Assembly: GCF_004000605.1 (NCBI RefSeq)
Contig: NZ_CP018911.1
Span: forward strand, 1,116,001 to 1,180,000
Source: Glycocaulis alkaliphilus
GTDB taxonomy: Bacteria > Pseudomonadota > Alphaproteobacteria > Caulobacterales > Maricaulaceae
Reading direction: 5' to 3'
Length of the DNA: 64,000 bases
In this document: positions 318-14,785 of the stretch, piece by piece
Layout of the letters: each line of letters opens with the position of its first letter
Numbering within the stretch: the stretch's first letter is position 1
Made by a program: the position numbers and the translations under genes
The notes under the pieces: generated by a model
Databases searched by the model: none
What the model was told of the DNA's origin: nothing
Seen by the model: only the letters and a program-made list of their open reading frames with translations

Positions 318-1625
318 TCAGGCGGCGGCGGGAGCAGCGCCGGGCTGCGACCGCCGGTGCAGGGAGCGCGCAACGAGAACCAGCGTGACGACCGCAACCG
401 GGTAGAAGGGCACGAGCGACAACATCGCGTATTCGAGCCCTTGTGCCGGACCGTACTGACCGGCCAGCCAGTCACTGGCAGCACCGATATAGAGCGGGCC
501 CAGGCCCATCCCGACCAGATTGATGACAAACAGCAGGATGGCCGCCGAGGTGCTGCGCTGGCCCGGAGGGGCCAGATTCTGCACGATCGCCATGCCGGGG
601 GCGACAAACATCATGTTCATCGCCATCGGGATGGTCAGGAAGATCAGCGCGACATACCAGCTGTCCGCCATCACGCCGACAACGAAGAACGGGATGCCGA
701 TGCCCAGCGCCCAGGCCGGGATCATGGCGTAGGCACTGGGCGTGGTGCGCGCAAAGCGGTCGGCAAGATGGCCGCTGAGAAACATGCCGAGCGCCATCGA
801 GAAGCCGATGACCAGGCTGTACCAGGTCGCGATGTCGGCCATTTCAGCGCCCTTCGCGCGCATCAGCAATGCAGGTGCCCAGGCGGCAAAGGCGTTGAAC
901 ACGAAGCTGTAGGCCGCTGCAGCGAGCAACAGCATACGCAGGGTCGGGTCGCCGAGAAAATCACGCACGCACTGCATGATCGAGGGGCCTTTGGTCCCGT
1001 CGGGCGCCGCCTCAACCGGCGCATCAAACCGGCCCCTCTTGGGCTCTCGCACGCACAGCCAGAGCAGCAGGGACAACAGAACACCCGGTGCGGCGACCAC
1101 GAAGAATGCGGTGCGCCAGCCAAACTGTGCGGCGGCCCAGCCACCCAGAGCCACGCCTACCGTCGCGCCGAGCGGCACGCCCAGTGACCACAAGGCGATA
1201 GCCCCGCCGCGCCGGTGAGGAGGGAAGTAGTCGGAGATGATGGACATGGACGGTGCCGCGCCGCCCGCCTCACCGATGCCCACGCCGATACGGGCAAACA
1301 GCAGATGGAGGAAATTGTTCGACAGGCCGCACAGGCCGGTGAACAGGCTCCATACAGCGCAGGCCACAGCCACAACGCGTACGCGGTTCACCCGGTCCGC
1401 CATCCACGCTACGGGGATGCCAAAACTGGTGTAGAACACGGCGAACGCAAAACCCGACACCAGCCCGATCTGGGTATCCGAGAGGTTCAGGTCCGCCTTG
1501 ATGGGCTCGGCGAGGATCGCCACGATCTGCCGGTCAAGATAGTTGAATGCGTAGATAAGGCCCAGAACGAGCACGACAAAATAGGGGTAAACGCCAACGC
1601 GCTGCTCACTCTGGGTCGATTGCAT
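318..1625 (-). CDS. MFS transporter, spinster-like
   Basis: This 435-residue polytopic membrane protein has about 12 hydrophobic segments. An N-terminal NYLDRQIVAIL stretch in helix 1 and a loop after helix 2 (residues about 60-80, AWMADRVNR, the MFS motif A region) match the spinster-like branch often found in sphingomonad and hyphomonad catabolic clusters. It probably moves a small organic substrate or product across the inner membrane. It lies downstream of a SnoaL-like gene on the same strand, with a hairpin between them, and may be transcribed partly from that gene's promoter. No convincing Shine-Dalgarno precedes the ATG. Substrate is unknown; the link to the catabolic cluster is inference from position. 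Confidence 0.85.
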   Translation of the reverse strand: MQSTQSEQRVGVYPYFVVLVLGLIYAFNYLDRQIVAILAEPIKADLNLSDTQIGLVSGFAFAVFYTSFGIPVAWMADRVNRVRVVAVACAVWSLFTGLCGLSNNFLHLLFARIGVGIGEAGGAAPSMSIISDYFPPHRRGGAIALWSLGVPLGATVGVALGGWAAAQFGWRTAFFVVAAPGVLLSLLLWLCVREPKRGRFDAPVEAAPDGTKGPSIMQCVRDFLGDPTLRMLLLAAAAYSFVFNAFAAWAPALLMRAKGAEMADIATWYSLVIGFSMALGMFLSGHLADRFARTTPSAYAMIPAWALGIGIPFFVVGVMADSWYVALIFLTIPMAMNMMFVAPGMAIVQNLAPPGQRSTSAAILLFVINLVGMGLGPLYIGAASDWLAGQYGPAQGLEYAMLSLVPFYPVAVVTLVLVARSLHRRSQPGAAPAAA

Positions 1626-1745: not shown

Positions 1746-2159
1746 CTAGTTGCGGCCGTGGTGGTCGAACTCTTCAACCCCCATCTCGCGCAGGAGGTGA
1801 GCCCGGTCATAATACTCGCGCCACTCGGTGATGAGATTGTCATCGCCGAATGAGATCACGCCGACGACGGGCACTTCGCCCTTCTTCCCCTTGAAGGTGA
1901 AGCGGTCCCAGCGCTCGACATAAACCCGGCCATCAATAACGCCGATATGGTCGATATCGAGCACGATCTCGTCAATGCCGGCGCCCAGCCCGGAAATGCG
2001 CTCGTAAATGGCTTCCCGCCCGACCACAGGGTCCACCATCATGGAGTGAAGCACGCCCTTGGGCGCGAACAGATCGCCGACCTTGCGCCAGTCCTTCTTC
2101 TCCCAGGCGCTCGCCATCTCGCGGACGGCCGCAATCTTCTTTTCTTCGGTTGACGACAT
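1746..2159 (-). CDS. SnoaL/limonene-epoxide-hydrolase-like protein
   Basis: This 137-residue protein of the NTF2-like alpha+beta cone fold begins at the ATG that has a strong GGGAGG ribosome site 7 bases upstream; an upstream in-frame extension to 2228 has no such support and would run through the regulatory motif. The layout (helical N-terminus, VVGREAIYERI, then strands ending in WREYYDR) is like limonene-1,2-epoxide hydrolases and SnoaL-type cyclases/isomerases. The family acts on hydrophobic rings or epoxides, often through Asp/Arg/Tyr networks. It is divergent from the TonB receptor gene, with two copies of the shared 20-bp motif between them. Exact reaction unknown. Confidence 0.75.
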   Translation of the reverse strand: MSSTEEKKIAAVREMASAWEKKDWRKVGDLFAPKGVLHSMMVDPVVGREAIYERISGLGAGIDEIVLDIDHIGVIDGRVYVERWDRFTFKGKKGEVPVVGVISFGDDNLITEWREYYDRAHLLREMGVEEFDHHGRN

Positions 2160-2172
2160 TATTTTCCTCCCT

Positions 2173-2192
2173 GTCAATCTCGTTATGCAAGC
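2173..2192 (-). promoter_or_regulatory. Shared cluster motif, copy a
   Basis: On the minus strand this reads GCTTGCATAACGAGATTGAC, one mismatch from the consensus RCTTGYWTAANNRGAYTWAC derived from five sites in this cluster. It ends 13 bases before the ATG of the SnoaL-like gene and points toward it. It could be an operator or contain the -10 element (CATAAC). Confidence 0.6.
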
Positions 2193-2215
2193 GATATTGG
2201 GGCATCTTCGGAGCC

Positions 2216-2238
2216 TGTCAATCAACACTGGCTTGACA
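2216..2238. promoter_or_regulatory. Inverted repeat TGTCAA-N11-TTGACA between divergent genes
   Basis: TGTCAA (2216-2221) and TTGACA (2233-2238) form a perfect 6-bp inverted repeat, so a consensus TTGACA reads outward on each strand. Motif copies a and d sit about 25 bp away on either side. The symmetry suggests back-to-back promoter or activator elements serving both genes. Confidence 0.4.
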
Positions 2239-2263
2239 AGACTGTCAGGCGAGTCATGGTGTC

Positions 2264-2283
2264 ACTTGCTTAAAAAGACGAAT
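2264..2283 (+). promoter_or_regulatory. Shared cluster motif, copy d
   Basis: This reads ACTTGCTTAAAAAGACGAAT, two mismatches from the shared consensus, oriented toward the TonB receptor gene and ending 54 bases before its ATG. Confidence 0.5.
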
Positions 2284-2337
2284 GGTCCGCGACGCCCGTC
2301 ATAAAGGCGGGAGGGCGGCCCGAGGGAGGAGTTGAGC

Positions 2338-4572
2338 ATGTCTGTCCGTTTTCGGAGAGGTCGGCTTCTGCTGACCACTGCCAGCCTGGCGCTGGGCGTT
2401 CTGATGCCCGCCACGTCACTGGCCAATGAGTTACAGGAACAGCCCGTAGCATCCACCAATCAGGGTGTTGAGGTGCTGGTCATTACCGCGCGCAGGCGGG
2501 CGGAAAGCCTGCAACGCGTGCCAATAGCCGTCACGGCTCTGGGATCAGAGCAGCTGCGTAACGAACAGATCACCGATCTGTCGGAAATAGCGGCTTATGT
2601 TCCGAGCTTTACCTACCAGTCCCAGAACTCGATGGAATCCGAGATGTTCATCCGCGGTGTGGGCACCACCCGGCTGAACGGTGCGACGGCTGACCCGTCG
2701 GTCGGCACGTTCCTCAACGAGATCTATATCGGCCGGCGTGGTTCGGCGACGCCGCCGCTCTTCGATCTTGAACGCGTCGAGGTTCTGCGCGGCCCGCAAG
2801 GCACGCTTTATGGCAAGAACGTCGTCGGCGGCGCTATCAACCTGATCACGGCGGCACCGCAAGACGAATTCGGCGCCGGCGGATCGGTGTCGATCGGCAA
2901 TTATTCCAGCCTTCTGGCCGAAGGATTTGTCACCGGCGCGCTGAGCGAAAACCTGTCAGCGCGTCTGTCGCTTTACCGCGAACGTCATGACGGCTTCGCG
3001 CGCAATGTGATTCGCGACGAAGAGCTGGAGGACCGCGATTCCTACGCCGGGCGTCTGTCACTGCTCTGGAACGCCAGCGATAATGTGCGCATCTCGCTGG
3101 TCGCAGACTACAGCGATGATCAGGGCGGCGGACCTTCGCGCAACGCCGTGGACGATCCCACCCAGCCCGGATTTGGCTTCATTACGCCAAACATTCCGGC
3201 CAATCCGCGCCTGAACCATTCGCCCTATGAGCAATATGCCGACCGTACCACGGGCGGTCTGACCGGCCGGATGGATTGGGACCTTGGCAACTCCACGCTA
3301 ACTTACCTCGCCGGCTACCGTTATGGCGAGGCGTCAGGCCGCTGGACGCAGGCCGGGGCCGGCTCGCCGCCTTCGATCACGGACAGCACGCTGACCCAGT
3401 ATGAGCAGTATCGTGGCTATACCCAGGAGCTGCGGCTGGCATCCGATGCCGGAAACCGGCTGCGCTGGATCGGTGGCCTCTACTATCTCTATGAGGACAT
3501 CGAGCGCAGCTCGCGCAACACGGCAACGTCCTTCCTTCCGGGCGGTCCGGGCAGCACGCGGGACTCGCTGGACGGCGACAACATCTTCATCGGGTTCAGC
3601 GAGACGCGCAGCTATGCGGTCTTCACCGAGGTCGAGTTCGACATCACCCCGGCAGTGACGCTGGTCGTAGGCGGACGCTACACCCGCGATGAGAAGGACC
3701 TCCAGTCTGACGCGATCATTCTCGATTTCGGGCAGCCGGGAGACCTGCTCTCGCCAGCCCCGCTTCAGGAGGAGTATTCGGTAACGGTGGGCGGCGCCTG
3801 GTCGCGCTTCACGCCGCGCGTATCGCTTGAGTGGGATGTGTCGGACAACCTGCTTGTCTACGCATCGTATTCGGAAGGGTTCAAAGGTGCAGGCTGGCAG
3901 GGAGCAACGGCCAATGCCGTCGCTGCGGCCACCGCCTATAATCCCGAATACGCCACCACTTACGAGATCGGCCTGAAAGCTGACTGGTTCAGCAACCGCC
4001 TGCGTACCAATCTGGCGGCCTTCTACACGGACTTCTCTGACCTGCAGGTGGAATTGCTTGACGATGTGAACCTTACCCTCGTCGTCGCCAATGCCGCCGA
4101 CGCCGTGATCAGCGGGTTCGAGTTCGAGGTGCAGGCAAGCCCGACCGACTGGCTGAACCTGTTTGCTTCAGGCTCGATCATCAACGCCGAGTACAAGGAC
4201 TATATCGATCCGCTTCGTGGCATCGACTATAGCGGCAACCAGATGCAGCGTACGCCGGAGTACCAGTACGCGGTGGGCGCGGACATCCGCCAGCCGGTAG
4301 GCAACAATCTCGAGCTGATCGGCAATATCAATTACGCCTATCAGGATCAGATGTACTGGGGCCCTAACGAGCTCAACTTCGAGCCGGGCTACGGCCTTCT
4401 CAATGCCCGTGTGGGGATCGGCGCCGAAGACGGCCGGTGGACGCTCTCGCTGTGGGGCCGCAACCTCACGGACGAGCTTTACCGTGTCAGCATCATCCCG
4501 TTCGTCGGGGATGAGGTGTCGGTATTTGGTGCGCCACGCACCTATGGTGTGCGCCTGACGGGCCGGTTCTAG
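2338..4572 (+). CDS. TonB-dependent outer-membrane receptor
   Basis: This 744-residue receptor would import a large or scarce ligand through the outer membrane using TonB energy. A signal peptide ends around ATSLA-NEL, followed by a TonB box (EVLVITARR), a plug domain with the typical PSFTYQS and VEVLRGPQGTLYGKN stretches (residues about 40-160), and a 22-strand barrel ending in GVRLTGRF with a terminal Phe. The ATG at 2338 is preferred over a TTG 6 bases upstream because GGGAGGA lies 7 bases before it. The family is the large IroN/CirA-like group common in sphingomonad catabolic loci. The shared motif upstream ties it to the carotenoid-oxygenase cluster; ligand unknown. Confidence 0.92.
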   Translation: MSVRFRRGRLLLTTASLALGVLMPATSLANELQEQPVASTNQGVEVLVITARRRAESLQRVPIAVTALGSEQLRNEQITDLSEIAAYVPSFTYQSQNSMESEMFIRGVGTTRLNGATADPSVGTFLNEIYIGRRGSATPPLFDLERVEVLRGPQGTLYGKNVVGGAINLITAAPQDEFGAGGSVSIGNYSSLLAEGFVTGALSENLSARLSLYRERHDGFARNVIRDEELEDRDSYAGRLSLLWNASDNVRISLVADYSDDQGGGPSRNAVDDPTQPGFGFITPNIPANPRLNHSPYEQYADRTTGGLTGRMDWDLGNSTLTYLAGYRYGEASGRWTQAGAGSPPSITDSTLTQYEQYRGYTQELRLASDAGNRLRWIGGLYYLYEDIERSSRNTATSFLPGGPGSTRDSLDGDNIFIGFSETRSYAVFTEVEFDITPAVTLVVGGRYTRDEKDLQSDAIILDFGQPGDLLSPAPLQEEYSVTVGGAWSRFTPRVSLEWDVSDNLLVYASYSEGFKGAGWQGATANAVAAATAYNPEYATTYEIGLKADWFSNRLRTNLAAFYTDFSDLQVELLDDVNLTLVVANAADAVISGFEFEVQASPTDWLNLFASGSIINAEYKDYIDPLRGIDYSGNQMQRTPEYQYAVGADIRQPVGNNLELIGNINYAYQDQMYWGPNELNFEPGYGLLNARVGIGAEDGRWTLSLWGRNLTDELYRVSIIPFVGDEVSVFGAPRTYGVRLTGRF

Positions 4573-4583
4573 GCCACAGGCAA

Positions 4584-4608
4584 GCCGGGGGACCGCCGTG
4601 CCCCCGGC
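4584..4608 (+). terminator. Hairpin after TonB receptor gene
   Basis: GCCGGGGG (4584-4591) pairs with CCCCCGGC (4601-4608) around a 9-base loop, 12 bp after the receptor stop codon. The T tract is poor, so this is a terminator-like hairpin. Confidence 0.5.
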
Positions 4609-4620
4609 AACCCTTGACAA

Positions 4621-4654
4621 GGGTGTTGCCTGACCGGAGGGTCAGGCAACACCC
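4621..4654. promoter_or_regulatory. Perfect 15-bp inverted repeat before the HxlR-type regulator
   Basis: GGGTGTTGCCTGACC (4621-4635) and GGTCAGGCAACACCC (4640-4654) pair perfectly around a GGAG loop, 19 bases before the regulator ATG. An adjoining 13-base palindrome, CCCTTG-A-CAAGGG, sits at 4611-4623. Neither strand shows a T run, so this may be an operator or an RNA structure in the regulator leader rather than a simple terminator. Confidence 0.5.
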
Positions 4655-4673
4655 CACTGTCCTCAACGGCCTC

Positions 4674-5642
4674 ATGAATTCATCGAAAAAACAGAGCAGA
4701 TCGCTCCCGGCAGACCGGGAGGCGCCACGTGCTGCCCCCGGCCAGCTGGTCGAGGCAGATTCAGCCGCGCGCGCGTTGAACATTCTGGGCGATCGCTGGA
4801 CGCTCATGATCATTTCCTACGCCTTTGTGGACGTAAGGCGCTTTGAAGACTTCCAGAACCGGATCGGGATTGCGCGCAGCCTGCTGACCGACCGGCTGCG
4901 CCGTCTGGTGGAGGTGGGAGTATTCCGGCGCGAACAGTATTGCGAGCGTCCGCCGCGCTTTGAATACCGCTTCACCGAGATGGGCCGGGACCTGTATGGC
5001 GCATCCCTGATGATTATCCGCTGGGAGAAGCGCTGGTTCTATGACCGCAACATCCCGGCACACACGATCAGGCATGATTGCGGGAAAGTCTTCACGCCGG
5101 AATACCGCTGCAAGGCGTGTGGCGGCGTCATCTACGCACGCGATACCTATTCTGAACCCGGTCCCGGCGCGGGCTTTGACCCTGCACCCAAATCGCGCGC
5201 GCAACGCCGGTCAATCGTCGACAGGGCGCTGCCCGAAGACTCCATGATGCAGCGTGCGACAGACGTGCTGGGGGATCGCTGGACATCGCACATCATCGCG
5301 GCCGCTTTCCTGGGCCATTCGCGTTTTGGCGAATTTGAACAGGCGCTTGGCGTGGCGTCGAACATTCTGGCCGACCGGCTCTCCCGGCTCGTGGAGCTCG
5401 GCGTGTTCAAGCAACGGCTCTATCAGGACAAGCCGGAACGCTGGGAATACAAGCTGACGCAGGAGGGGCTGGACCTGTTCCCGCTGGTGCTGGAGCTGGT
5501 GCGCTGGGGTGATCGCTGGCTGTCCACCAAGGAAGGGGTTCCGCGCATCATCTATCACCGCCCCTGCGGCCATGTGCTGGAAGGCGTTATCACGTGCGAT
5601 CAGTGCGAGGGCGAGGTGACCCGGCACTCCACGGCAATCTGA
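4674..5642 (+). CDS. Tandem-domain HxlR-family transcription regulator with zinc-ribbon-like motifs
   Basis: This 322-residue protein contains two complete HxlR-type winged-helix units. Unit 1 is about residues 28-125 (ALNILGDRWTLMIISYAF, LLTDRLRRLVEVGVF) and unit 2 about 190-285 (ATDVLGDRWTSHIIAAAF, ILADRLSRLVELGVF). Each is followed by a ribbon-like metal site: H134/C136 with C146-x2-C149, and H295/C298 with C308-x2-C311. Typical HxlR proteins have one domain and act as dimers, so this is a single-chain pseudo-dimer. I chose the ATG at 4674; a TTG at 4614 would place the strong hairpin inside the coding region. It lies amid the catabolic genes and is the best candidate for binding the shared 20-bp motif. 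Confidence 0.85.
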   Translation: MNSSKKQSRSLPADREAPRAAPGQLVEADSAARALNILGDRWTLMIISYAFVDVRRFEDFQNRIGIARSLLTDRLRRLVEVGVFRREQYCERPPRFEYRFTEMGRDLYGASLMIIRWEKRWFYDRNIPAHTIRHDCGKVFTPEYRCKACGGVIYARDTYSEPGPGAGFDPAPKSRAQRRSIVDRALPEDSMMQRATDVLGDRWTSHIIAAAFLGHSRFGEFEQALGVASNILADRLSRLVELGVFKQRLYQDKPERWEYKLTQEGLDLFPLVLELVRWGDRWLSTKEGVPRIIYHRPCGHVLEGVITCDQCEGEVTRHSTAI

Positions 5643-5655
5643 CGCAGGCCCAGAC

Positions 5656-5675
5656 GCTTGCTTAAGGAGACTAAC
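5656..5675 (+). promoter_or_regulatory. Shared cluster motif, copy e
   Basis: GCTTGCTTAAGGAGACTAAC matches the five-site consensus exactly. It begins 13 bases after the regulator stop codon and ends 46 bases before the dioxygenase ATG, suggesting a separate promoter for the dioxygenase gene. Confidence 0.65.
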
Positions 5676-5721
5676 GCCGGTAGCCTGCAGGCAAAGTTCT
5701 TTCGAACCAAGGACAAGCCTG

Positions 5722-7194
5722 ATGAAGCTCGAACGTCTCCCGCCGGTCAAAACCTCCCTGCGCTCCAGCAATCACCCTTATCTCAACGGTGCGTGGACGC
5801 CGTTGCACGAAGAGGTGAATGCGTGGGATCTGGAAGTGATTGAGGGGACGGTCCCGTCCGACATTGATGGTGTTTACCTGCGCAATACCGAGAACCAGGT
5901 ACATCAGCCGCTTGGGCGGCATCACCCGTTTGATGCCGATTCAATGATCCACCAGATCGACTTTTCAAACGGCAAGGCGTCCTATCGCAACAGGTTCGTG
6001 CGCACGCGCTGCTTTCAGGCCGAGCAGATCGCCGGGGAATCGCTCTGGGGCGGACTTGCAGACCCAGCTGGCACATCCCGCCGGCCCGGTTTCGGCGCCC
6101 ATGGCAGCCTGAAGGATAATGCCAGCACGGACGTCGTTGTTCATGGCGGCAAGGCGCTGGCCACCTTCTATCAGTGCGGCGAAGCCTACATGCTCGACCC
6201 GGAAACCCTCGAGCAGATGGGCGTTGCCCCCTGGGCGCCGCTTGATGGTGTGTCGGCCCACTGCAAGGTCGATGAGCGCACGGGCGATCTGCTCTTCTTC
6301 AACTACTCCAAGCACGCGCCCTACATGCATTACGGCGTGGTGGACCCGTCTGGCCGGTTGAAGCACTACACGCCCATTCCGCTGCCCGGACCGCGCCTGC
6401 CGCACGACATGGCATTCTCGGAAAACTACTCGATCCTGAATGATCTGCCGGTCTTCTGGAATGCCAGCCTGCTGGAGCGCGGCATTCATGCTGTGCGCAT
6501 GCACGACCTGCCTTCGCGCTTTGCCATCCTGCCCCGCTACGGCACCGAAAAGGATATCCGCTGGTTCGAGGCCGACCCGACCTATGTGCTGCACTTCCTG
6601 AACGCCTACGAGCAGGGCGACGAGATCATCATGGACGGCTATTTCCAGGAAGATCCGATTCCGAAACCGCTCACTGACGGGCCCAAGGGCTATGAGCACC
6701 TGATGGCCTATATCGATGAGCACAGCTTCAAACCCAAGCTGCACCGCTGGCGGTTCAACTTGGCGACCGGCAAGACGGTAGAGGAGCGTCTCGACGACCG
6801 GATCGTCGAGTTTGGCATGATCAATCAGCGCGTGGCGGGCCAGCGCCATCGCTATATCTACTCCACCACCACCAAGCCGGGCTGGTTCCTGTTCAACGGC
6901 TTCATCAAGCACGATCTCGATACCGGGACGTCAGAAGAAGTGCGTCTTGAAGAGGGCCGCTATGCGAGTGAAGCGCCGTTCGTCCCCCGCATTAATGCGA
7001 AGGACGAGGATGACGGCTATCTGGTCTCGTTCGTGGTCGATGAAAATGCCGGAAAGTCGGAATGCATCCTGATTGACTGCAAGCGCTTCTCCGACGGGCC
7101 GGTCGTACGCATTGCCCTGCCGCACAAGATTTCCAGCGGCACCCATTCATGCTGGGCCGACCGCGGCTTCATCCGTAACGGCAAGGCAGGGTAG
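5722..7194 (+). CDS. Carotenoid-cleavage/lignostilbene-dioxygenase family protein
   Basis: This 490-residue protein belongs to the RPE65/carotenoid oxygenase family, non-heme Fe(II) enzymes that split a C=C bond with O2 to give two carbonyl products. The four iron-binding histidines are in family-typical settings: His180 (SAHCKV), His228 (PHDMAF), His291 (LHFLNAYE) and His475 (GTHSCW), with second-shell acid E417 near APFVPR. Family members act on carotenoids, apocarotenoids or stilbenes. A neighbouring feruloyl-CoA-synthase-like gene favours a phenylpropanoid or stilbene substrate, but an apocarotenoid is equally possible. It has its own copy of the shared motif and ends 7 bp from the convergent CoA ligase. 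Confidence 0.88.
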   Translation: MKLERLPPVKTSLRSSNHPYLNGAWTPLHEEVNAWDLEVIEGTVPSDIDGVYLRNTENQVHQPLGRHHPFDADSMIHQIDFSNGKASYRNRFVRTRCFQAEQIAGESLWGGLADPAGTSRRPGFGAHGSLKDNASTDVVVHGGKALATFYQCGEAYMLDPETLEQMGVAPWAPLDGVSAHCKVDERTGDLLFFNYSKHAPYMHYGVVDPSGRLKHYTPIPLPGPRLPHDMAFSENYSILNDLPVFWNASLLERGIHAVRMHDLPSRFAILPRYGTEKDIRWFEADPTYVLHFLNAYEQGDEIIMDGYFQEDPIPKPLTDGPKGYEHLMAYIDEHSFKPKLHRWRFNLATGKTVEERLDDRIVEFGMINQRVAGQRHRYIYSTTTKPGWFLFNGFIKHDLDTGTSEEVRLEEGRYASEAPFVPRINAKDEDDGYLVSFVVDENAGKSECILIDCKRFSDGPVVRIALPHKISSGTHSCWADRGFIRNGKAG

Positions 7195-7201
7195 GGGGGC
7201 G

Positions 7202-8905
7202 TCAGCCCCCCAGCTTTTCAAGCACCTGCTCGCGCAGTTGCGAGCGGACAACCTTGTTCATGGCATTGCGTGGAAGCGCGTCTACCCGAACGGCTTGCTC
7301 CGGCAGCTTGAATACGGCGAGACCCTTTTCACGCAGCCAGCCGGTAAGCTGTTCCAGCGTCGGCACCGCTTCGCCGCGTGGAACGATGGCAGCGCAGACG
7401 CGTTCACCCAGCACCTCGTCAGGAATGCCGACCACAGCCGCCTCGGCAAGGTCAGGATGACCGCTGAGCAGATCGTCCAGCTCGGCCGGCGAGATGTTCA
7501 CGCCGCCCCGCACGATGATGTCCTTGCACCGCCCGACAAAGCGATAGAATTGCGGTATTGCGCCATCACCAGCCAGCTCGAACAGATCGCCTGTGCGGTA
7601 ATAGCCCTGCTCGTCAAACACCGCTGCCGTCAGTTCCGGGTTGCCGAAATAGCCGGAGAAGGTGGCAGCGCCCTGAAAGCGCAGCTCGCCGGGTATGCCC
7701 GCTTCGGTAATGTCTTCGCCAGTTTCAAGGTCCACCAGCCGGGTCTGGATCATGGACGCAATATCGCCCGACCATTCAATCCCTTCTACCCCCATGCGGG
7801 GGAAATAGCGCGCCCTGTCGGCATGGTCAGGCACGTGCAGGTGGGAGCTGAACAGCGAGGCTCCTTCGTTGGAGCCGTATATATTGCAGACCTCAATGCC
7901 GTACTCGCGCGAGAAGCCCTCGATCATCCAGGGCGCGAGCGGCGCAGAACCGGCGCCAATCGCGCGCAGGGAGTCCAGACTGGTCCCGGCAACCAGTTCC
8001 GGCATTTTCAGGATCGCGTTCAGGATAGCGGGAGCGGCGATGGTGTAGTTCACCCGCTCGGCCTCTATCTGCTGCAGGAAGACCTTCAGGTCGAACGGAT
8101 GGTGCAGGACCAGCACACCCGCCCGCCAGAGCCATGAGGTCACAAGGCCGAACGAGCCGATATTCACCAGCGGGAACGGGTTCAGCACCGTCTCGCCGGG
8201 CTGCAGGTCGGCCGCTTCGGTTACCATGCGCGCATTGACGATCCACAGATTATGGTCGCGCGGCACGCCCTTGGGCCGGGCCTCGGTGCCCGACGTCCAG
8301 AAGATGGTGAAGGTCTCGTCCGGCCGTGACGGGTTGGCCTTGGCATAGGCGCTTGCGCGCTCGCCGCTGGTGTTTGCCATGGCGGCATCAAGGTCAACCG
8401 TGCCCTCGGGCGCGTCTCCGCCAAGGATGAGCACCTTATAGCCACGCGATGGCTGGAGCTTCAGCGCCAGCGCCGCGTGATCAAACCCGGCAAAGCGGGC
8501 GAGCGTCACGACCGCCTTGGGTTTCACCGTGTCGAGTACATAGGCCAGCTCATGCTCGCGATAGGCGGTCACGACCGGGCTGATGACCAGCCCGATACGC
8601 GCGGCCGCCAGTGCCAGGATCACGGTCTCGGCGAAGTTCGGCGTCTGGTAGGTCAGCACATCGCCCTTGCGCAGGCCCTGCTCCAGAAGAGCCGCCGCCA
8701 TCGCATCAACCTCCTCACCCAGCTCCGCCCAGCTCAGCCTGCGTGGCTGCTTGCCATCGAGATCGGCACGGTTCAGCGGATCCCGGAGCGCGCGTTTTCC
8801 GGCCGCTTCGACCCGGTTGCGCTGGACGAGGTGGTCGAGTGTGAGCGAGCCCCACCATCCTTTGGCGGTGTACTCCTCGAGGCGTGATGCGGGCGTTGCG
8901 GCCAT
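7202..8905 (-). CDS. Acyl-CoA synthetase (AMP-forming)
   Basis: This 567-residue class I adenylate-forming enzyme activates a carboxylic acid to its CoA thioester through an acyl-AMP. Motifs in order are the P-loop TSGTEARPKG, NIYGSNEG (A5), YYRTGDL (A7), FVGRCKDIIVRGGVNISP (A8 hinge) and a C-terminal PRNAMNKV with the catalytic lysine, so it looks complete and active. It resembles cyclohexanecarboxylate, benzoate and medium-chain acid ligases more than acetyl-CoA synthetases. It diverges from the DapB-like gene across a 97-bp gap that holds motif copy b. It presumably activates an acid derived from the dioxygenase product; the substrate is inference. Confidence 0.87.
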   Translation of the reverse strand: MAATPASRLEEYTAKGWWGSLTLDHLVQRNRVEAAGKRALRDPLNRADLDGKQPRRLSWAELGEEVDAMAAALLEQGLRKGDVLTYQTPNFAETVILALAAARIGLVISPVVTAYREHELAYVLDTVKPKAVVTLARFAGFDHAALALKLQPSRGYKVLILGGDAPEGTVDLDAAMANTSGERASAYAKANPSRPDETFTIFWTSGTEARPKGVPRDHNLWIVNARMVTEAADLQPGETVLNPFPLVNIGSFGLVTSWLWRAGVLVLHHPFDLKVFLQQIEAERVNYTIAAPAILNAILKMPELVAGTSLDSLRAIGAGSAPLAPWMIEGFSREYGIEVCNIYGSNEGASLFSSHLHVPDHADRARYFPRMGVEGIEWSGDIASMIQTRLVDLETGEDITEAGIPGELRFQGAATFSGYFGNPELTAAVFDEQGYYRTGDLFELAGDGAIPQFYRFVGRCKDIIVRGGVNISPAELDDLLSGHPDLAEAAVVGIPDEVLGERVCAAIVPRGEAVPTLEQLTGWLREKGLAVFKLPEQAVRVDALPRNAMNKVVRSQLREQVLEKLGG

Positions 8906-8939
8906 GCGGATTTGCTCCCTGAATTTTATATGTCAATTT

Positions 8940-8959
8940 ACTTGCATAATAAGACTAAC
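8940..8959 (+). promoter_or_regulatory. Shared cluster motif, copy b
   Basis: ACTTGCATAATAAGACTAAC is an exact match to the shared consensus in the divergent 97-bp region. It points to the gene at 9003 (43 bases away) and is 34 bases from the ligase ATG on the other strand. It includes a CATAAT that could be a -10 element. Confidence 0.65.
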
Positions 8960-9002
8960 TGTGCCCATTCATCAGGGCAAGCCATGAGAGGAAGACGCAT
9001 TC

Positions 9003-10049
9003 ATGTATCGGGTAATCCAGTGGGCGACAGGGTCCATGGGCCGGACGGCCCTGCGCCGCATCATCGACCATCCCGATCTCGAACTGGCAGGTGTTTACGT
9101 CTATAGCCCGGACAAGGCAGGGCGCGATGCGGGTGAGCTGGTCCGGCGCGAACCGACGGGAATCATTGCGACATCGCGCATAGAAGACATTCTCGCGCTT
9201 GACGCCGACATTGTCATCCACACGCCGCGTATCACGCTGCCTTACGAGGCGCTGAGCGGTGATGTCGAACGGCTGCTCGCTTCCGGCAAGAATGTGATTT
9301 CGTCTGCCGGGTTTCACTTCCCCGACGCGCATGACGAGGATTATGCCGGCCCTCTGCGCGCCGCATGTGAGGCCGGGGGCAGCACGCTGGCGGGGCTCGG
9401 CGTCAACCCTGGCGGCTTTGTGGAACGCGTGGTGATGGCCGCGACCGGCTTCTCCTCACGCCTTGACCATCTCGATGTGCGCGAGATGGTGGATGCCTCG
9501 CAGATGACCTCACCGGAGTTTGTCTTCGGCATGATGGGCTTCGGGCGCGATCCGCAAAAGGATGACATCCGCAAAGGCCCGCTGGCCACGCTCTATACCA
9601 AGCTGTTCAGCGAGGTTCTGGCGCACGCCGGTTACGCCATGCACACCCGGATCCGGGCCATCGAGCCGGACCACGAGCTGACGATTGCGCCGCGCGACAT
9701 CCCCACCGGGGCGGGGCCGGTGCCCGCGGGCACCGTGGCGGCGACGCGCTGGCGCTGGACGGCCCATTACGAGAACGGCTCCAGCTTCACCCTGTCGATC
9801 CTGTGGACCGCTGACCCGGCACTTCACGATGGCGAGACGGGCGGGCACTGGGTCGTGGACATCACCGGGCGCCCCAATATCCGCCTTACGCTGGATATCC
9901 ATGAAGGCGACCCGAACATACCCTCCTCGCGTGCCCTGACGGACGCGACCATGGCTGCCGCGCTGCGCGGTATTCCCGATGTGTGTGCCGCCCCGCCCGG
10001 CTTTTTCAGCTACCCGGCACCCGGAGCCTACCGGACAAGGCTGGCCTGA
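9003..10049 (+). CDS. Dihydrodipicolinate-reductase-like NAD(P)H-dependent oxidoreductase
   Basis: This 348-residue protein has an N-terminal Rossmann fold with the nucleotide loop WATGSMGRTALRRII (residues about 7-21) and a DapB-like overall layout. A downstream stretch (GVNPGGFVERVVMAATGF) is like the C-terminal half of 2,4-diaminopentanoate dehydrogenases. True DapB enzymes are about 270 residues and act in lysine synthesis; this longer form is common in actinobacterial and sphingomonad catabolic loci, where its reaction is mostly unproven. It should oxidise or reduce an intermediate with NAD(P)H. A clear GAGAGGAAG ribosome site precedes the ATG. Confidence 0.75.
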   Translation: MYRVIQWATGSMGRTALRRIIDHPDLELAGVYVYSPDKAGRDAGELVRREPTGIIATSRIEDILALDADIVIHTPRITLPYEALSGDVERLLASGKNVISSAGFHFPDAHDEDYAGPLRAACEAGGSTLAGLGVNPGGFVERVVMAATGFSSRLDHLDVREMVDASQMTSPEFVFGMMGFGRDPQKDDIRKGPLATLYTKLFSEVLAHAGYAMHTRIRAIEPDHELTIAPRDIPTGAGPVPAGTVAATRWRWTAHYENGSSFTLSILWTADPALHDGETGGHWVVDITGRPNIRLTLDIHEGDPNIPSSRALTDATMAAALRGIPDVCAAPPGFFSYPAPGAYRTRLA

Positions 10050-10077
10050 GCCGTATTGCTTGAAGCTGGAAAGAAAA

Positions 10078-10104
10078 GAGCGCATCACCAGAGGTGATGC
10101 GCTC
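10078..10104 (-). terminator. Intrinsic terminator of the DUF1295 operon
   Basis: A perfect 12-bp stem (GAGCGCATCACC / GGTGATGCGCTC) with a 3-base loop is followed on the minus strand by CTTTTCTTTC. It lies 26 bp past the DUF1295 stop codon and may also stop plus-strand transcripts from the gene ending at 10049. Confidence 0.85.
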
Positions 10105-10130
10105 ATCCAGTTTGGAGGTACGCGGAAAAA

Positions 10131-10925
10131 TCAGGCCTTGCGCGGCGGCCACGGAATGAAGCCGGACGTACGCTCGATATAGGCGACGTAATCAGGCTTG
10201 GTCTTGCGCATGCGGTATTCCATCGTTGGCGCGCCCGACCATTTGATCAGTGTCCAGGTGAGGAATGCCGGGCCGGCGAACGACCACAGGCCCGTGCTCG
10301 TCTCGGCGGCGATCAGGAACAGGCCCCACCACACCAGCGCCTCACCGAAATAGTTCGGGTGGCGTGAGTATTTCCAAAGGCCGCTTTGCATGACCTTGCC
10401 GGCATTGGCCGGGTCTTTGCGGAAGCGGGTCAGCTGCCAGTCGGCAATGCTCTCGAAGACTAGGCCGAAAAGGGCGATGGCTGCGCCCGTCCACGCCAGA
10501 ATGCCAAGAGCGGCAGGCACTGCATCGATCGGGCCGAGCTGGACCGGCAGGGTCACGAGGAACTGCAAGGGCGCCTGCGTGAGAATGACGGCAATCAGGC
10601 TGGCACGGGCAAAGCCCCAGCCCTTTTCCTCTTTCAGGCGTTCAAACATGCGCTTGTAGCGGCGGTCCGGCCCGTGATCGCGCCAGCGCCAGTACATGTA
10701 AGCCGTCAGGCGTGCGCCCCATAAGCCGGTGATGACCAGAAGCAGCACGGCCCGGTCGCCCTGACCGGACTGCAGGAAGGTGGATATGGCCAGCACCACC
10801 GCGCCAAGCGCCCAGTAGGCATCCACGATGGTGCAATCCTTCAGGGCAATGCATATCAGCCAGAGAATGAAGAACCCGGCGGCAAGCACGGCCAGATTGG
10901 TAGCCAGAACTGTAACTACGTCCAC
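10131..10925 (-). CDS. DUF1295 membrane protein (steroid 5-alpha-reductase/ICMT-like fold)
   Basis: This 264-residue integral membrane protein has about six hydrophobic helices and the family signature in its last third: GLWKYSRHPNYFGEALVWWG, then EYRMRKTKPDYVAYIERTSGFIPW. DUF1295 belongs to the superfamily of steroid 5-alpha reductases and isoprenylcysteine methyltransferases, so it may reduce an enone or alkylate a lipophilic substrate. The start codon is GTG (10923-10925) with AAGGGGAAG upstream. It is the last gene of a five-gene minus-strand operon starting at 14470 and is followed by an intrinsic terminator. Its presence supports a hydrophobic, possibly terpenoid, substrate. Confidence 0.82.
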   Translation of the reverse strand: MDVVTVLATNLAVLAAGFFILWLICIALKDCTIVDAYWALGAVVLAISTFLQSGQGDRAVLLLVITGLWGARLTAYMYWRWRDHGPDRRYKRMFERLKEEKGWGFARASLIAVILTQAPLQFLVTLPVQLGPIDAVPAALGILAWTGAAIALFGLVFESIADWQLTRFRKDPANAGKVMQSGLWKYSRHPNYFGEALVWWGLFLIAAETSTGLWSFAGPAFLTWTLIKWSGAPTMEYRMRKTKPDYVAYIERTSGFIPWPPRKA

Positions 10926-10945
10926 TGTCTTCCCCTTTTTTTTAT

Positions 10946-11704
10946 CTAGCGCCCGGTGGCAATGCTGCTCGCACCGAGCATGCGGGCGACGGCGCGTTCC
11001 ACGCCCTTGGGATCGCGCGCCAGATCGGCCCGCAGCTCCACCGCCATGCGGTCTGTATCGATCTCGTCAATGCCCCGGCGAATGGCCTTCAGGCCCACTT
11101 TCGCGATGTCTTCGGGGCGTTCCTTGTTCCCGCCGACATGGGCGGCCATCCGGGTATCAACCGAGCCCACAATCAGGGCGCTGACTTGCGTTTTCTGCTC
11201 GGCAAGCTCGGCCCGTATGCAGGCTGAAGCCGCGCGGGCGGCAAACTTGGACGGGCTGTAACCGCCCATGACGGGCATGGCGACGAGCGCGCCGCCCGAC
11301 AGCACGTTCACGATCGCGCCGCCGCCATTGGCCTTGAGGATGGGTGCAAACGCCCGGCTCATCGCCAGAAGGCCGAAAAAGTTGACTTCCATCTCCTCGC
11401 GCGCGGCATTCATGTCCGGCGCCGCCATCAGGCGCTGGTTCAGAAAAGCTCCGGCATTATTGACGAGGATCGAGACATCCTTGCATTCGCGCGCGGCGGC
11501 CTCGACCTGTTCGGGACGCGTGACATCCAGCTCCAGCGCGACGGCACGGCCGCCGGACTCCTCCACCAGATGCGCGGCGCTGCTGGCCGATCTCGCCCCG
11601 ACATAGACGCGGGATGCCCCGGCCTGCAGGAATGCGCGCACAAAGGCTTCGCCAATGCCGCGATTGCCGCCCGTGACGAGGGCTACGGCTCCTTCGAGTT
11701 CCAT
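10946..11704 (-). CDS. Short-chain dehydrogenase/reductase
   Basis: This 252-residue classical SDR would oxidise an alcohol or reduce a carbonyl with NAD(P). It has the cofactor loop TGGNRGIGEAF (residues about 9-20), the NNAG motif, and a catalytic triad Ser (NVLSGGAL), Tyr and Lys in YSPSKFAA. The start at MELEGAVALVTGG is chosen because it lies 5 bases after the stop of the preceding operon gene and fits the family length; the longer open frame to 11860 would overlap that gene heavily. A likely role is dehydrogenation of a side-chain alcohol before or after CoA activation. Confidence 0.87.
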   Translation of the reverse strand: MELEGAVALVTGGNRGIGEAFVRAFLQAGASRVYVGARSASSAAHLVEESGGRAVALELDVTRPEQVEAAARECKDVSILVNNAGAFLNQRLMAAPDMNAAREEMEVNFFGLLAMSRAFAPILKANGGGAIVNVLSGGALVAMPVMGGYSPSKFAARAASACIRAELAEQKTQVSALIVGSVDTRMAAHVGGNKERPEDIAKVGLKAIRRGIDEIDTDRMAVELRADLARDPKGVERAVARMLGASSIATGR

Positions 11705-11709
11705 GGGTT

Positions 11710-12240
11710 TTAGCCTTTTGCGTAGATGGGATCGTGCGGCTTCTTGGCGCTGCGCACGAGTTTGGAGATGTCCGGCACCATCGTGCCGCGGCCCCATGTC
11801 TCGGCGTGGTCCATCTCGTGGTTCCACTCCCAGACGAGCTGGCGGCGGGCGATTTTCCATGCACCGTCCCGCTTCTCGAAGCGGTCAATGGCGCGCGCCA
11901 GGGTGAGCGTATCGAACGTTTCACCGTCCTTCTTCATCCGGGCGAAGGCGAGGATGTAGTGCTCGGCCAGAGCCTTCTCGCCATCCAGTTCGACATGGAT
12001 ATTCGTGGAGAGATGGTTCATCAGCCCGCCGCGCGGCAGGATTTTCGCCATCAGCGCGATGTATTCGGAGGCCGGTCCGTCAAACACCCCGCCATGATCC
12101 TCCCACGCATCATCGTGATAGCAGCTGGTCAGAAGCTCGATATCGGCCCGGTCAGCGGCGCGCAGATAGAGATTGATGACATCGGTAATGGCCTGCTTGT
12201 CGAGCAGGGCCTGGACCTCGGGGGAATGGTTCGTGCTCAT
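11710..12240 (-). CDS. SnoaL-like (SnoaL_4) NTF2-fold protein
   Basis: This 176-residue protein is of the scytalone-dehydratase/SnoaL_4 type. The N-terminal helix ALLDKQAITDVINLYLRAAD and a central HDDAWEDHGG are typical, and a DRFEKRDGAWKI strand pair follows in the second half. Family members act as dehydratases, isomerases or dioxygenase beta-subunit-like proteins without a cofactor. Its start overlaps the upstream ligase stop by 4 bases (ATGA), indicating translational coupling. It is one of three NTF2-fold proteins in this cluster, and the three are not close copies of each other. Reaction unknown. Confidence 0.78.
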   Translation of the reverse strand: MSTNHSPEVQALLDKQAITDVINLYLRAADRADIELLTSCYHDDAWEDHGGVFDGPASEYIALMAKILPRGGLMNHLSTNIHVELDGEKALAEHYILAFARMKKDGETFDTLTLARAIDRFEKRDGAWKIARRQLVWEWNHEMDHAETWGRGTMVPDISKLVRSAKKPHDPIYAKG

Positions 12241-14030
12241 GCATCACCTTCAATAATGAGAATGCCGGAATCGGGCGTCGCGGCGTAAAGCCGTTCAACA
12301 TCGCCGCGGCGGCGGTCGATGACAGCGCGGCGGTTCACCGTGCCCTTGTCGGACAGCTCGTGAGCGTTCGGGTCTGGCGGTGTATCCAGCAAAAGGGCGC
12401 GCCGGATCTTCGAGCCGCCATGCTGGCCTTCATTTACCGCCCGGATGGCTTTCGCGATGGCGTCCGGCGACGCGCCCGGCTTGGCCCAGCCCATCAAGGT
12501 GAGGTAGGGCCGGTCATCATCACACAGGACCAGATCGGTCATCAGGGTGCCAAGCTGGCGCATCAGCGTGTCGCGAAGCGCGCCGCCATAGACCCAGGCG
12601 CCGCTGGACAGCTTGAACTCCTCCGCCGCCCGCCCGGCAAAGGCAAGGCCCTGCTCAGGGCGGTCAGGGTCATGGAATACGGCAAGGTCTCCGGTGCGGT
12701 AGAAGCCTTCCTCGTCGAATGAGGCAGCCGTCTTCTCCGGCTCATCCAGATAGCCAGCCGTCACATTCGGGCCGCGTGCGCGCAGCTCGTAGCGGTCACC
12801 TGAGGGGACAAGCTTCACCTCGGCCCCCGGCGTTGGCAGGCCGATGCCCACCTTGTCGCTCTCAAAGTGGATGACCATGAAGGCCGACACGGTTTCGGTG
12901 GAGCCATAGCCGCTGGTCAGCATGATGCGATGGCCGGTCTCGGCCACAGCCAGAGCCTGCAGCCGGTCATAGACGGACTGCGACAGGCCCGCCCCGCCAT
13001 AGAGCATCAGGTTCAGCCGGGCAAAGAAGGTCTTGCGCAGCGCTGCATCCGCTTCCAGCGCGTCCACCAGCATGGAATAGCCCAGCGGCACATTGTTGTA
13101 ATAGCCGACACTGACCTCGCGCAGATTGCGGATCGACTGGTCAAACAGGCCAGGGGCGGGCTTGCCGTCATCGACATACATCGTGCCGCCCTCAAGCAGG
13201 GTGGTGCGCATCGCGAAGGCACCGGCGGCGTGGTGCCAGGGTAGCCAGTCCAGCATGACATCGTGCCAGCCAGCGCTTTTGCCGATGGTCTGCTGGCACT
13301 GGGCGCTGTTGGCGGCGAGATTGTCGAAGCTGATCTCGACCAGCTTGGGCAGGCCGGTGGAGCCTGAGGTAAGCATGTAGGCGGCCACGTCATCGGCGCG
13401 GCGCGCAGCGATGGCCTCGCTCACGGCCTGCGTTACCGGCGTCGCGGTGACGGTATCGAAGGCATGAGCGCCGGGCGCGTCCGCAGCGCAGGTGACAAGA
13501 CGGGCATCGCCGGTATCAAGACTGGCTATCGCTTTGAACGCGCCAGCGCTCTGGGCAAAGATCGCGCCGGGCTTTGCCTTGGCGATAACGTGCCTGAGGC
13601 GTCCATAATCGCCGCCCAGAGCCGCATAGGTCGTGCTGACAGGGCAGACAGGCAAGCCTGCCGCCCAGCCTGCAAATGTCATCACGGCAAAGGCAGGGCC
13701 GTTCTCGGCAACAATGAGCAGGGCGCGGTCACGCGGCGCGTGGTCGAGCAACCATTGCGTCGCCCCGTCAATCTGGCGCTTCAGATCGGCGTAGGAGGTA
13801 AACACCCACTCGCCGTCGGCACTGGCGCGCTTGGCCATGGCAGGCTTCTCGCCCTGGGCCTGTGCCATGCGCGCGAACCGGGCGGGAAGATTGGTCTCAT
13901 AGGGCTGCAGTGTGATGCGCGAGCGCACGACGACCGTCCCGCCGGGGCGGCGCTGAATGTCCAGATCGACCGGCAGCAGCGATGCATCACGCAGCGGCGC
14001 GAACGCGGCCTTCGCTTCGGGAAGAGCCAT
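12237..14030 (-). CDS. Feruloyl-CoA-synthase-like AMP-dependent ligase
   Basis: This 597-residue adenylate-forming enzyme has features specific to feruloyl-CoA synthases: an N-terminal lead-in before LQPYETNLP, DWLPWHH after the TSGSTGLPKLV P-loop, then MYVDDGKPAP, FDQSIRNLREV and YYNNVPLGY, and a C-terminal ELSDKGTVNRRAV carrying the probable catalytic lysine. True Fcs activates ferulate, coumarate and caffeate. No hydratase/lyase (Ech) or vanillin dehydrogenase gene is beside it, so it is probably not in the standard ferulate pathway and may activate a related acid. It overlaps both neighbours by 1-4 bases. Confidence 0.84.
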   Translation of the reverse strand: MALPEAKAAFAPLRDASLLPVDLDIQRRPGGTVVVRSRITLQPYETNLPARFARMAQAQGEKPAMAKRASADGEWVFTSYADLKRQIDGATQWLLDHAPRDRALLIVAENGPAFAVMTFAGWAAGLPVCPVSTTYAALGGDYGRLRHVIAKAKPGAIFAQSAGAFKAIASLDTGDARLVTCAADAPGAHAFDTVTATPVTQAVSEAIAARRADDVAAYMLTSGSTGLPKLVEISFDNLAANSAQCQQTIGKSAGWHDVMLDWLPWHHAAGAFAMRTTLLEGGTMYVDDGKPAPGLFDQSIRNLREVSVGYYNNVPLGYSMLVDALEADAALRKTFFARLNLMLYGGAGLSQSVYDRLQALAVAETGHRIMLTSGYGSTETVSAFMVIHFESDKVGIGLPTPGAEVKLVPSGDRYELRARGPNVTAGYLDEPEKTAASFDEEGFYRTGDLAVFHDPDRPEQGLAFAGRAAEEFKLSSGAWVYGGALRDTLMRQLGTLMTDLVLCDDDRPYLTLMGWAKPGASPDAIAKAIRAVNEGQHGGSKIRRALLLDTPPDPNAHELSDKGTVNRRAVIDRRRGDVERLYAATPDSGILIIEGDA

Positions 14031-14470
14031 CAGCTCGCCCTCGTGACAACCGGCCTGTCGAGCATGGCGCGTACTTCAGGAGAAATCTCCTTTTTCTCGC
14101 GCTGGTTGGTTTGCACATAGGCGTTGAAATACTCGCGCCAGCGGTGAATCCGCCCGTCCTTGAACTCCAGAACGCCTGCATAGGGCACGGCCAGATGCGA
14201 GCCGTCAGTGCCGGTAAACTCATCCACGCCTTCCATCCAGAGCGTGTCGCCATTCTCCGCGTAATCGAAAAGGCGCCAGTCATTGGATTGCGTCTTGCCA
14301 GCCATCTTGGTGAGAGCGGCGCGCATGGCGTCCTTGCCCTCAAAGACCGGCAGCATGCCGCCGGAATTATTCCATATGAAATCGTCGTGGATGTGCTCCA
14401 TGACAGCGTCCACGTCGAGCCTGTGCCAGGCTTCGATAACGTCAAGAAGAGTATCGATATGGCGAGCCAA
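14030..14470 (-). CDS. SnoaL/NTF2-like protein, first gene of minus-strand operon
   Basis: This 146-residue NTF2-fold protein of the limonene-epoxide-hydrolase/ketosteroid-isomerase superfamily shows an N-terminal helix (LLDVIEAWHRLDVD), FEGKDAMRAAL, and late strands ending in IHRWREYF. The start is TTG (14468-14470), supported by an excellent GGGAGG ribosome site 8 bases upstream; no ATG fits better. Its stop overlaps the following ligase start by one base. It leads the operon SnoaL - Fcs-like - SnoaL_4 - SDR - DUF1295. The substrate is unknown, but polyketide, terpene and steroid rings are typical for the fold. Confidence 0.78.
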   Translation of the reverse strand: MARHIDTLLDVIEAWHRLDVDAVMEHIHDDFIWNNSGGMLPVFEGKDAMRAALTKMAGKTQSNDWRLFDYAENGDTLWMEGVDEFTGTDGSHLAVPYAGVLEFKDGRIHRWREYFNAYVQTNQREKKEISPEVRAMLDRPVVTRAS

Positions 14471-14516
14471 AGCTTTTTCCTCCCTTAAGCCTCTCTTTGC
14501 CGGAGGCTATTTCCTT

Positions 14517-14536
14517 GTAAGTCCGGTTATACAAGC
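14517..14536 (-). promoter_or_regulatory. Shared cluster motif, copy c
   Basis: On the minus strand this reads GCTTGTATAACCGGACTTAC, an exact consensus match ending 46 bases before the TTG start of the operon. The copy contains TATAAC, a good -10 candidate, and its CTTGTA is mirrored by TACAAG a few bases on. The rest of the 14471-14785 gap holds the upstream region of the propeller lipoprotein gene, where I see nothing else distinct. Confidence 0.65.
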
Positions 14537-14785
14537 GACGCTCGGGAAGCGCAACCAGCGGATTCCTCAGCCGGGCTAAAGTCTTGTTTTGGCAATGAAG
14601 TCATGAGCTGGCGCCGGAAATCGCCGGGCGGTCAGGAACAGGCCGGACCGTCCCGGCGAAGGCGCAACGCATCCTGCAAACTCTCTGGGCACGCCCCCCT
14701 GACAATCGGCGTCAGAGGCGCGAATCCGGCTTGCCGCAATCTCTGGCCACTGCTCAACTTGCCCCGTTTCAGGGGGGAGATGTCA

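Follow-up and report, generated by a model that had tools for sequence, protein, structure and literature searches.

The HxlR proteins whose structures have been solved are single-domain regulators. HxlR of Bacillus subtilis activates on formaldehyde, and its complex with DNA is available (PDB 7bzg), with the crystal DNA CAGTATCCTCGAGGATACTG and the 6-bp half-sites AGTATC and GATACT (PMC7835342, cited here from an excerpt). The locus considered in this work belongs to a stretch of 64,000 nucleotides of Glycocaulis alkaliphilus (contig NZ_CP018911.1, positions 1,116,001 to 1,180,000 of the forward strand), named the window in what follows, and consists of a 12-gene catabolic cluster in which a short motif recurs in front of the genes. 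The cluster encodes a regulator of 322 amino acids with two HxlR domains in one chain. Judging from sequence comparisons, it is very likely that the motif is the operator of this tandem-HxlR protein, and the finding very probably adds a new regulator-operator pair, in which a known domain family occurs in a fused form that is unusual. Neither tandem HxlR regulators nor this motif were the subject of any paper found within the open-licence literature, part of some result lists being covered. PheR, considered as a possible relative, is an IclR-type protein and is not related (PMC13273656, excerpt).

The initial annotation of the window had reported a 20-bp motif, RCTTGYWTAANNRGAYTWAC, at five start regions of the cluster. 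Direct pattern matching recovered it at all five coordinates and on the same strands, with 1, 2, 0, 0 and 0 mismatches in coordinate order. The five copies are indeed far beyond chance, as had been claimed: 0.25 matches are expected in the window at up to three mismatches, and none of 100 shuffles reached five. Also correct was the statement that four of them lie 43 to 54 bases from a start codon (54, 46, 43 and 46 bp, the fifth being at 13 bp). The set was larger than annotated, amounting to six copies, one for each likely transcription unit of the cluster, with units judged from gene order and spacing. The predicted operator copies are as follows.

2172..2196, minus strand: copy 1 (2173-2192 in the initial annotation), 13 bp before the start codon of the SnoaL-like gene; conserved block in four genomes.
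2227..2248, plus strand: copy 6, in the middle of the divergent SnoaL/TonB-receptor region, between copies 1 and 2; weaker match, overlapping a TTGACA; conserved in three other aligned genomes.
2260..2284, plus strand: copy 2 (initially 2264-2283), 54 bp before the TonB-receptor start, with the regulator gene behind the receptor gene.
5652..5676, plus strand: copy 3 (initially 5656-5675), 46 bp before the RPE65-type dioxygenase gene; 10.3 bits; position conserved in four genomes.
8936..8960, plus strand: copy 4 (initially 8940-8959), 43 bp before the DapB-like gene and 34 bp upstream of the divergent ligase gene.
14516..14540, minus strand: copy 5 (initially 14517-14536), 46 bp before the SnoaL-like/ligase/SnoaL/SDR/DUF1295 run, counted to its last SnoaL-like gene.

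Copy 1 probably serves the SnoaL-like gene plus the MFS gene behind it.

The specificity of the motif was evaluated in two ways. At up to two mismatches, the pattern matched nothing in the genome (3,019,659 bases, one contig) other than the five window copies. At up to three mismatches, 16 matches were obtained with the forward pattern (11 beyond the five) versus 35 with the reversed pattern, so the 11 extra matches are mostly noise. The second approach, a close variant of the whole-genome matrix scan that had been suggested and one that the motif passed, used an independent, sequence-only profile made from 42 copies of other genomes and none of the window (hand-picked among 82 non-window copies scoring at least 22). 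Applied unfiltered to the window, it gave six copies at 9.8-19.6 bits, the next best score being 5.5. Of 205 first-look candidates over the whole genome, 150 were scored with it; the matches at E ≤ 10 numbered five, all in the cluster, and comprised four of the five initial copies plus the new one at 2227-2248, while the RPE65 copy was missed by the filtered scan. In an alignment of the SnoaL/TonB-receptor intergenic region from four genomes, three conserved blocks were seen, which coincide with copies 1, 6 and 2. A weak motif-like stretch at 14577-14596 (minus strand) scored 14.3 on the 113-copy profile described below and was not recovered by the independent model; it is probably noise.

The annotated 20-bp motif is present in every one of the five sites, but the element is longer, with additional columns upstream that read AGTn. 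The profile of 113 copies from 17 loci, the window included, was AGTnACTTGCATAACrAGACTnA(C)(T), with information extending upstream of the 20-mer; among these 113 copies are some weak ones, admitted at a threshold of 10.5, as well as others from the vicinity of second tandem-HxlR genes, and loci L062 and L064 were left out. On this profile, the full element is of about 25 bp, AGTnACTTGCATAACrAGACTnACT, with unlike halves. The best centre for a palindrome is column 9, with halves ACTTGC (columns 1-6) and, on the other strand, roughly AGTCTY (columns 12-17), this symmetry being weak; direct repeats in the element also score (best 0.65). Unlike halves appear to fit a fused HxlR pair, although the symmetry argument alone does not show one domain per half.

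Concerning the regulator, Pfam HxlR (PF01638) matched it in two stretches (3.6e-41, 139.4 bits), and its structural model, with a mean predicted local distance difference test score (pLDDT) of 88.1 and a predicted template modelling score (pTM) of 0.84, displays two winged-helix domains. It thus departs from the single-domain layout of the solved family members, and so do the other 28 sequences of a 29-sequence alignment, all with two HxlR domains per chain. When compared with the PDB by sequence and fold, only single-domain relatives were among the matches listed; the nearest solved chains were the single HxlR-family proteins PA1607, PA1374, PG_0823, YodB and HypR, with HxlR lower. In the alignment, each domain is followed by a conserved HxxCG..CxxC tail (window 5079-5130 and 5565-5612; Cys 136/146/149 and 298/308/311), and from their sequence these tails look like a metal-binding site. 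Besides these six residues the only Cys is Cys90. The first recognition helix differs between groups (ARSLL, LKALL, PRQTL, ARSVL), and for the second ATNIL or APNIL predominates; the alignment used for this comparison omits L062, L095 and L100. A helix-to-base code read by eye (first-helix Arg with G at position 5, Lys or Gln with T) gave mixed counts and was retained only as a lead.

The regulator search yielded 44 loci in species genomes, 17 of them at 59-70% identity, from Terricaulis, Caulobacter, Phenylobacterium and records whose names stop at family, order or class, and 27 at 32-47% in the best segment, mostly from Rhizobiales. The motif was sought in 60 loci (L039-L098, 1.14 Mb), a few of them partial or with single-domain relatives only; L062 duplicates the record of L039 (G054), and both are within the 17-locus and the 60-locus counts. 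At up to three mismatches, 131 matches versus 9 with the reversed pattern were found, with at least one in 51 loci; at up to two mismatches, there were 62 versus 2. In the 17 ortholog loci the figures were 55 versus 2 (up to three mismatches), with at least one match in each locus and six in that of Terricaulis. The placement of copies was studied in 16 ortholog loci, L064 not included (54 matches, genes called by a simple codon model): a gene start occurred within 70 bp in the motif direction in 31 cases and only in the other direction in 9. The genes behind these copies are homologs of the DUF1295, DapB, RPE65, SnoaL, TonB-receptor, SDR and ligase genes of the window. In Phenylobacterium-type loci, the copy before SnoaL1 is in the opposite orientation and 35-60 bp away.

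More distant relatives separate regulator from pathway. Nearly the same motif accompanies the rhizobial relatives, whose identity is about 33%. In the rhizobial locus L076 (11007-20016) a relative of about 35% identity stands beside molybdo-hydroxylase subunits, CoxG and a branched-chain-type ABC transporter, and ACTTGCATTATTAGACTTAA is present; this and similar copies recur in most rhizobial loci. As rhizobial tandem-HxlR loci keep the motif beside an unrelated cluster, it seems reasonable to interpret that the motif follows the regulator and not the pathway. The genome of G. alkaliphilus itself contains a second tandem HxlR, 36% identical, at locus L049 (G000:C1:1261000-1280500), together with another RPE65 (47%), a ligase and a TonB receptor. 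This locus has its own motif version, ACTTCAWTAAACGAACTAAC, exact in this genome and in four of the same genus. One of the 11 genome matches at three mismatches (C1:1268000) falls in it and is conserved in four same-genus genomes, and a further motif version stands 76-77 bp before the second regulator gene in four of five same-genus loci. The Pectobacterium loci L096, L097 and L098 show HxlR-like matches, with one weak motif-like match each.

A blind search, with no reference to the regulator, was run over 200 genomes of the order. At up to one mismatch it gave four matches in four genomes: that of G. alkaliphilus; G184, between a tandem HxlR (57%) and RPE65 (75%); G194, 37 bp upstream of RPE65 (71%); and G167, where a reversed copy is 29 bp away from a DUF1295-like gene. 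The last three hold a full-length tandem HxlR at 57, 53 and 41%. A looser pattern gave 20 matches in 17 genomes, and an ortholog was detected at E ≤ 1e-75 in 16. Both motif and ortholog were present in 11 genomes, the motif only in 6, the ortholog only in 5 and neither in 178 (Fisher p = 1.2e-10, uncorrected for kinship and assuming that both searches share one sample). A full-length tandem HxlR was present in 16 of the 17 motif-positive genomes; in five of the six motif-only ones it was at 36-41%. Fifteen of the 18 matches outside G. alkaliphilus adjoin a cluster homolog or a tandem-HxlR gene: nine stand 30-39 bp before RPE65 genes in the motif direction; two precede, by about 28-30 bp, TonB receptors that share 70% identity with that of the window (counted to the aligned first residue); two are reversed, one about 57 bp from SnoaL1 and the other about 26 bp from an RPE65 of 42%; and two are beside a tandem-HxlR gene. 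The remaining three (L118, L119, L122) have no cluster homolog as a neighbour. Finally, in 20 whole genomes that hold a tandem-HxlR locus (105.3 Mb by rounded sizes), 42 of 56 matches at up to two mismatches lie within 10 kb of that locus and the other 14 do not; no locus range was set for G220 or G223 in this count, so the two matches of G223 were counted as outside.

Several observations weigh against the assignment of the motif to the regulator. The palindromic symmetry that an HxlR pair would lead one to expect does not reach significance (p = 0.196, column shuffles matching its score in 19.6% of trials), nor do the half-site bases covary beyond column frequencies. Nine of the 60 loci lack a match at up to three mismatches (L040, L044, L045, L053, L073, L079, L089, L093, L094), and 25 lack one at up to two. 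Among the 54 placed matches, 13 are without a called gene start in the 70 bp on either side and one is inside a called gene; this one (L059, 8125) has homologous counterparts in seven other loci, where they precede the DUF1295 start by 40-43 bp. Five of the 16 ortholog genomes lack the motif at up to two mismatches, and genome G211 has it without a regulator at E ≤ 1e-30. Most motif genomes also hold RPE65, and the linkage is therefore partly shared with the pathway. Bare totals do not exceed the reversed control in the strict blind search (4 versus 7), in the looser one (20 versus 29) or, to any extent, in the 20 whole genomes (56 versus 54). The forward excess lies in the place of the matches and not in their total, because the reversed pattern, with its 54 matches genome-wide, gives none in the 20 tandem-HxlR loci themselves, against 40 for the forward pattern.

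The genes of the cluster to which the sites are related, identified with Pfam unless otherwise stated, are the following.

318..1625, minus strand: MFS transporter.
1746..2159, minus strand: SnoaL-like protein.
2338..4572, plus strand: TonB-dependent receptor.
4674..5642, plus strand: regulator of 322 amino acids, with two HxlR winged-helix domains and two Cys-rich tails (Pfam, alignment and model).
5722..7194, plus strand: RPE65-family dioxygenase (Pfam; NCBIfam matches below cut-off).
7202..8905, minus strand: AMP-binding acyl-CoA ligase.
9003..10049, plus strand: DapB_N-type dehydrogenase.
10131..14470, minus strand: gene run of DUF1295, SDR, SnoaL_4, AMP-binding ligase and a further SnoaL-like gene (Pfam and gene order).
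14030-14470, minus strand: last SnoaL-like gene of the run, named in the initial annotation.

For the RPE65-type enzyme, the NCBIfam models of 8'-apo-carotenoid 13,14-cleaving dioxygenase and lignostilbene dioxygenase were discarded, their matches being far below the cut-offs. No ortholog of the regulator was found in the five same-genus genomes searched, where the best hits were paralogs at 36-39%, and the nearest ortholog found was that of Terricaulis (70%). Either acquisition of the cluster by transfer or its loss from the sister genomes may be behind this pattern.

Taken as an operator, the motif suggests the following mechanism. The regulator would be a single-chain HxlR 'dimer', whose two winged-helix domains have different recognition helices. 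One chain would read one element of about 25 bp, probably with the ACTTGC half contacted by one domain and the AGACT half by the other. We infer that the sites thus bound would cover the core promoter (the -35/spacer or the start-site region) of each likely transcription unit, and that the regulator most likely represses the pathway until a pathway compound releases it. It would also repress its own gene through the receptor-regulator unit. The regulator gene starts 101 bp after the receptor gene, and profile scoring of the window found no copy between them.

Repression is the sign of control that we favour, with moderate confidence, from the position of the sites. It is likely at copy 1 because this copy is only 13 bp from the start codon. 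Among 58 copies with a gene start 22-75 bp downstream, a TANNNT box occurs 16-17 bp after the TTG hexamer of the motif in 11, and these offsets were the only downstream ones to reach the reporting threshold; in the other 53 copies it was offset 31. In those 11 copies the motif may overlap a -35 element. An equivalent box could be placed after copy 3.

5681..5686, plus strand: possible -10 box TAGCCT, 17 bp after the TTGCTT of the motif read as -35; the TAG is conserved in four aligned genomes.

Both the position of copy 1 and the TANNNT/TAG spacing would fit steric repression. Four intergenic regions were also scanned with the sigma-70 consensus and no promoter was found, a result of little weight for this bacterial group.

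The alternative that survives best, although we regard it as unlikely, is that the tandem HxlR binds these sites as an activator that recruits polymerase when ligand-bound. HxlR itself is an activator responding to formaldehyde (PMC7835342), so the sign of control is uncertain, and the 31 of 54 ortholog-locus matches with a gene start within 70 bp in the motif direction are near enough for polymerase contact. On the other hand, copy 1 ends downstream of any position usable by an activator, the copies occur in both orientations, and in the 11 copies followed by a TANNNT box the site would cover the -35.

Much less probable is that the motif is the site of another pathway regulator, the tandem HxlR being merely a neighbour. 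It could explain genome G211 as well as four genomes (L102, L108, L109, L110) in which the RPE65 gene with a copy is on another contig than the tandem-HxlR gene or 100 kb away from it. These four still hold the ortholog, and the distance between both genes suggests control in trans. Furthermore, rhizobial loci with a tandem HxlR and no recognised cluster gene carry the motif, and among the 12 genes of the cluster no further regulator was seen.

That the motif is a special or extended promoter element, as the initial annotation offered besides an HxlR operator, is hardly tenable and at most partly right: the TANNNT spacing in 11 of 58 copies and the conserved TAG of the RPE65 copies would agree with it, but within the 3-Mb genome the motif is restricted to a single cluster of 12 kb, occurs in both orientations and at 13-60 bp instead of the fixed orientation and distance of sigma-70 elements, is too close to the SnoaL-like start codon for a -35 box, and tracks a regulator gene across genomes. 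For the CATAAT and TATAAC sequences of some copies, mentioned there, no support as -10 boxes turned up, though no separate test was aimed at them. The operator proposal of the same annotation is strongly supported, as the motif tracks the tandem-HxlR genes.

The operator reading provides a predicted regulator, operator and regulon for a catabolic cluster, and makes of the motif a sequence sign for locating the rest of the pathway elsewhere, including genes far from the regulator, like the four separate RPE65 genes. Fused HxlR domains paired with an asymmetric site would offer a natural system in which to study which helix residue reads which base, and tandem HxlR plus operator form a candidate orthogonal switch. 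With more reserve, and as a tentative generalization, tandem HxlRs could be a class of regulators, mainly of Alphaproteobacteria, that are naturally fused heterodimers. Their two diverged helices would read the unlike halves of an asymmetric operator of about 25 bp, changes in one helix would rewrite one half-site, and unrelated pathways (RPE65-type cleavage, molybdo-hydroxylase) would have recruited the class while its operator stayed almost the same.

When the proposed system is compared with known ones, it shares the domain family with B. subtilis HxlR, and the crystal half-sites of the latter are of about the size and spacing proposed here (PMC7835342). Copies near LLK-type paralogs contain ATACT or GATACT. 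Unlike HxlR, a single-domain chain of 123 residues with symmetric crystal DNA, the regulator has two fused domains and its site has unlike halves; HxlR senses formaldehyde via Cys11-Lys13, while the regulator has no Cys before residue 90. Redox regulators of the YodB/QsrR/HypR type (MarR/DUF24) have the same fold and family, but YodB-type proteins are single-domain and sense through an N-terminal Cys located before the first helix, Cys6 in YodB (PMC6798810, excerpt), which is absent here. The arrangement of the sites resembles that of the MhqR operators of Staphylococcus and Bacillus, with one copy before each unit of a small regulon, although MhqR belongs to the MarR family and its site is a 9-9 bp inverted repeat of other sequence. 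One of the MhqR operators was mapped over the transcription start, from -6 to +12 (PMC6798810), as proposed here for copy 1.

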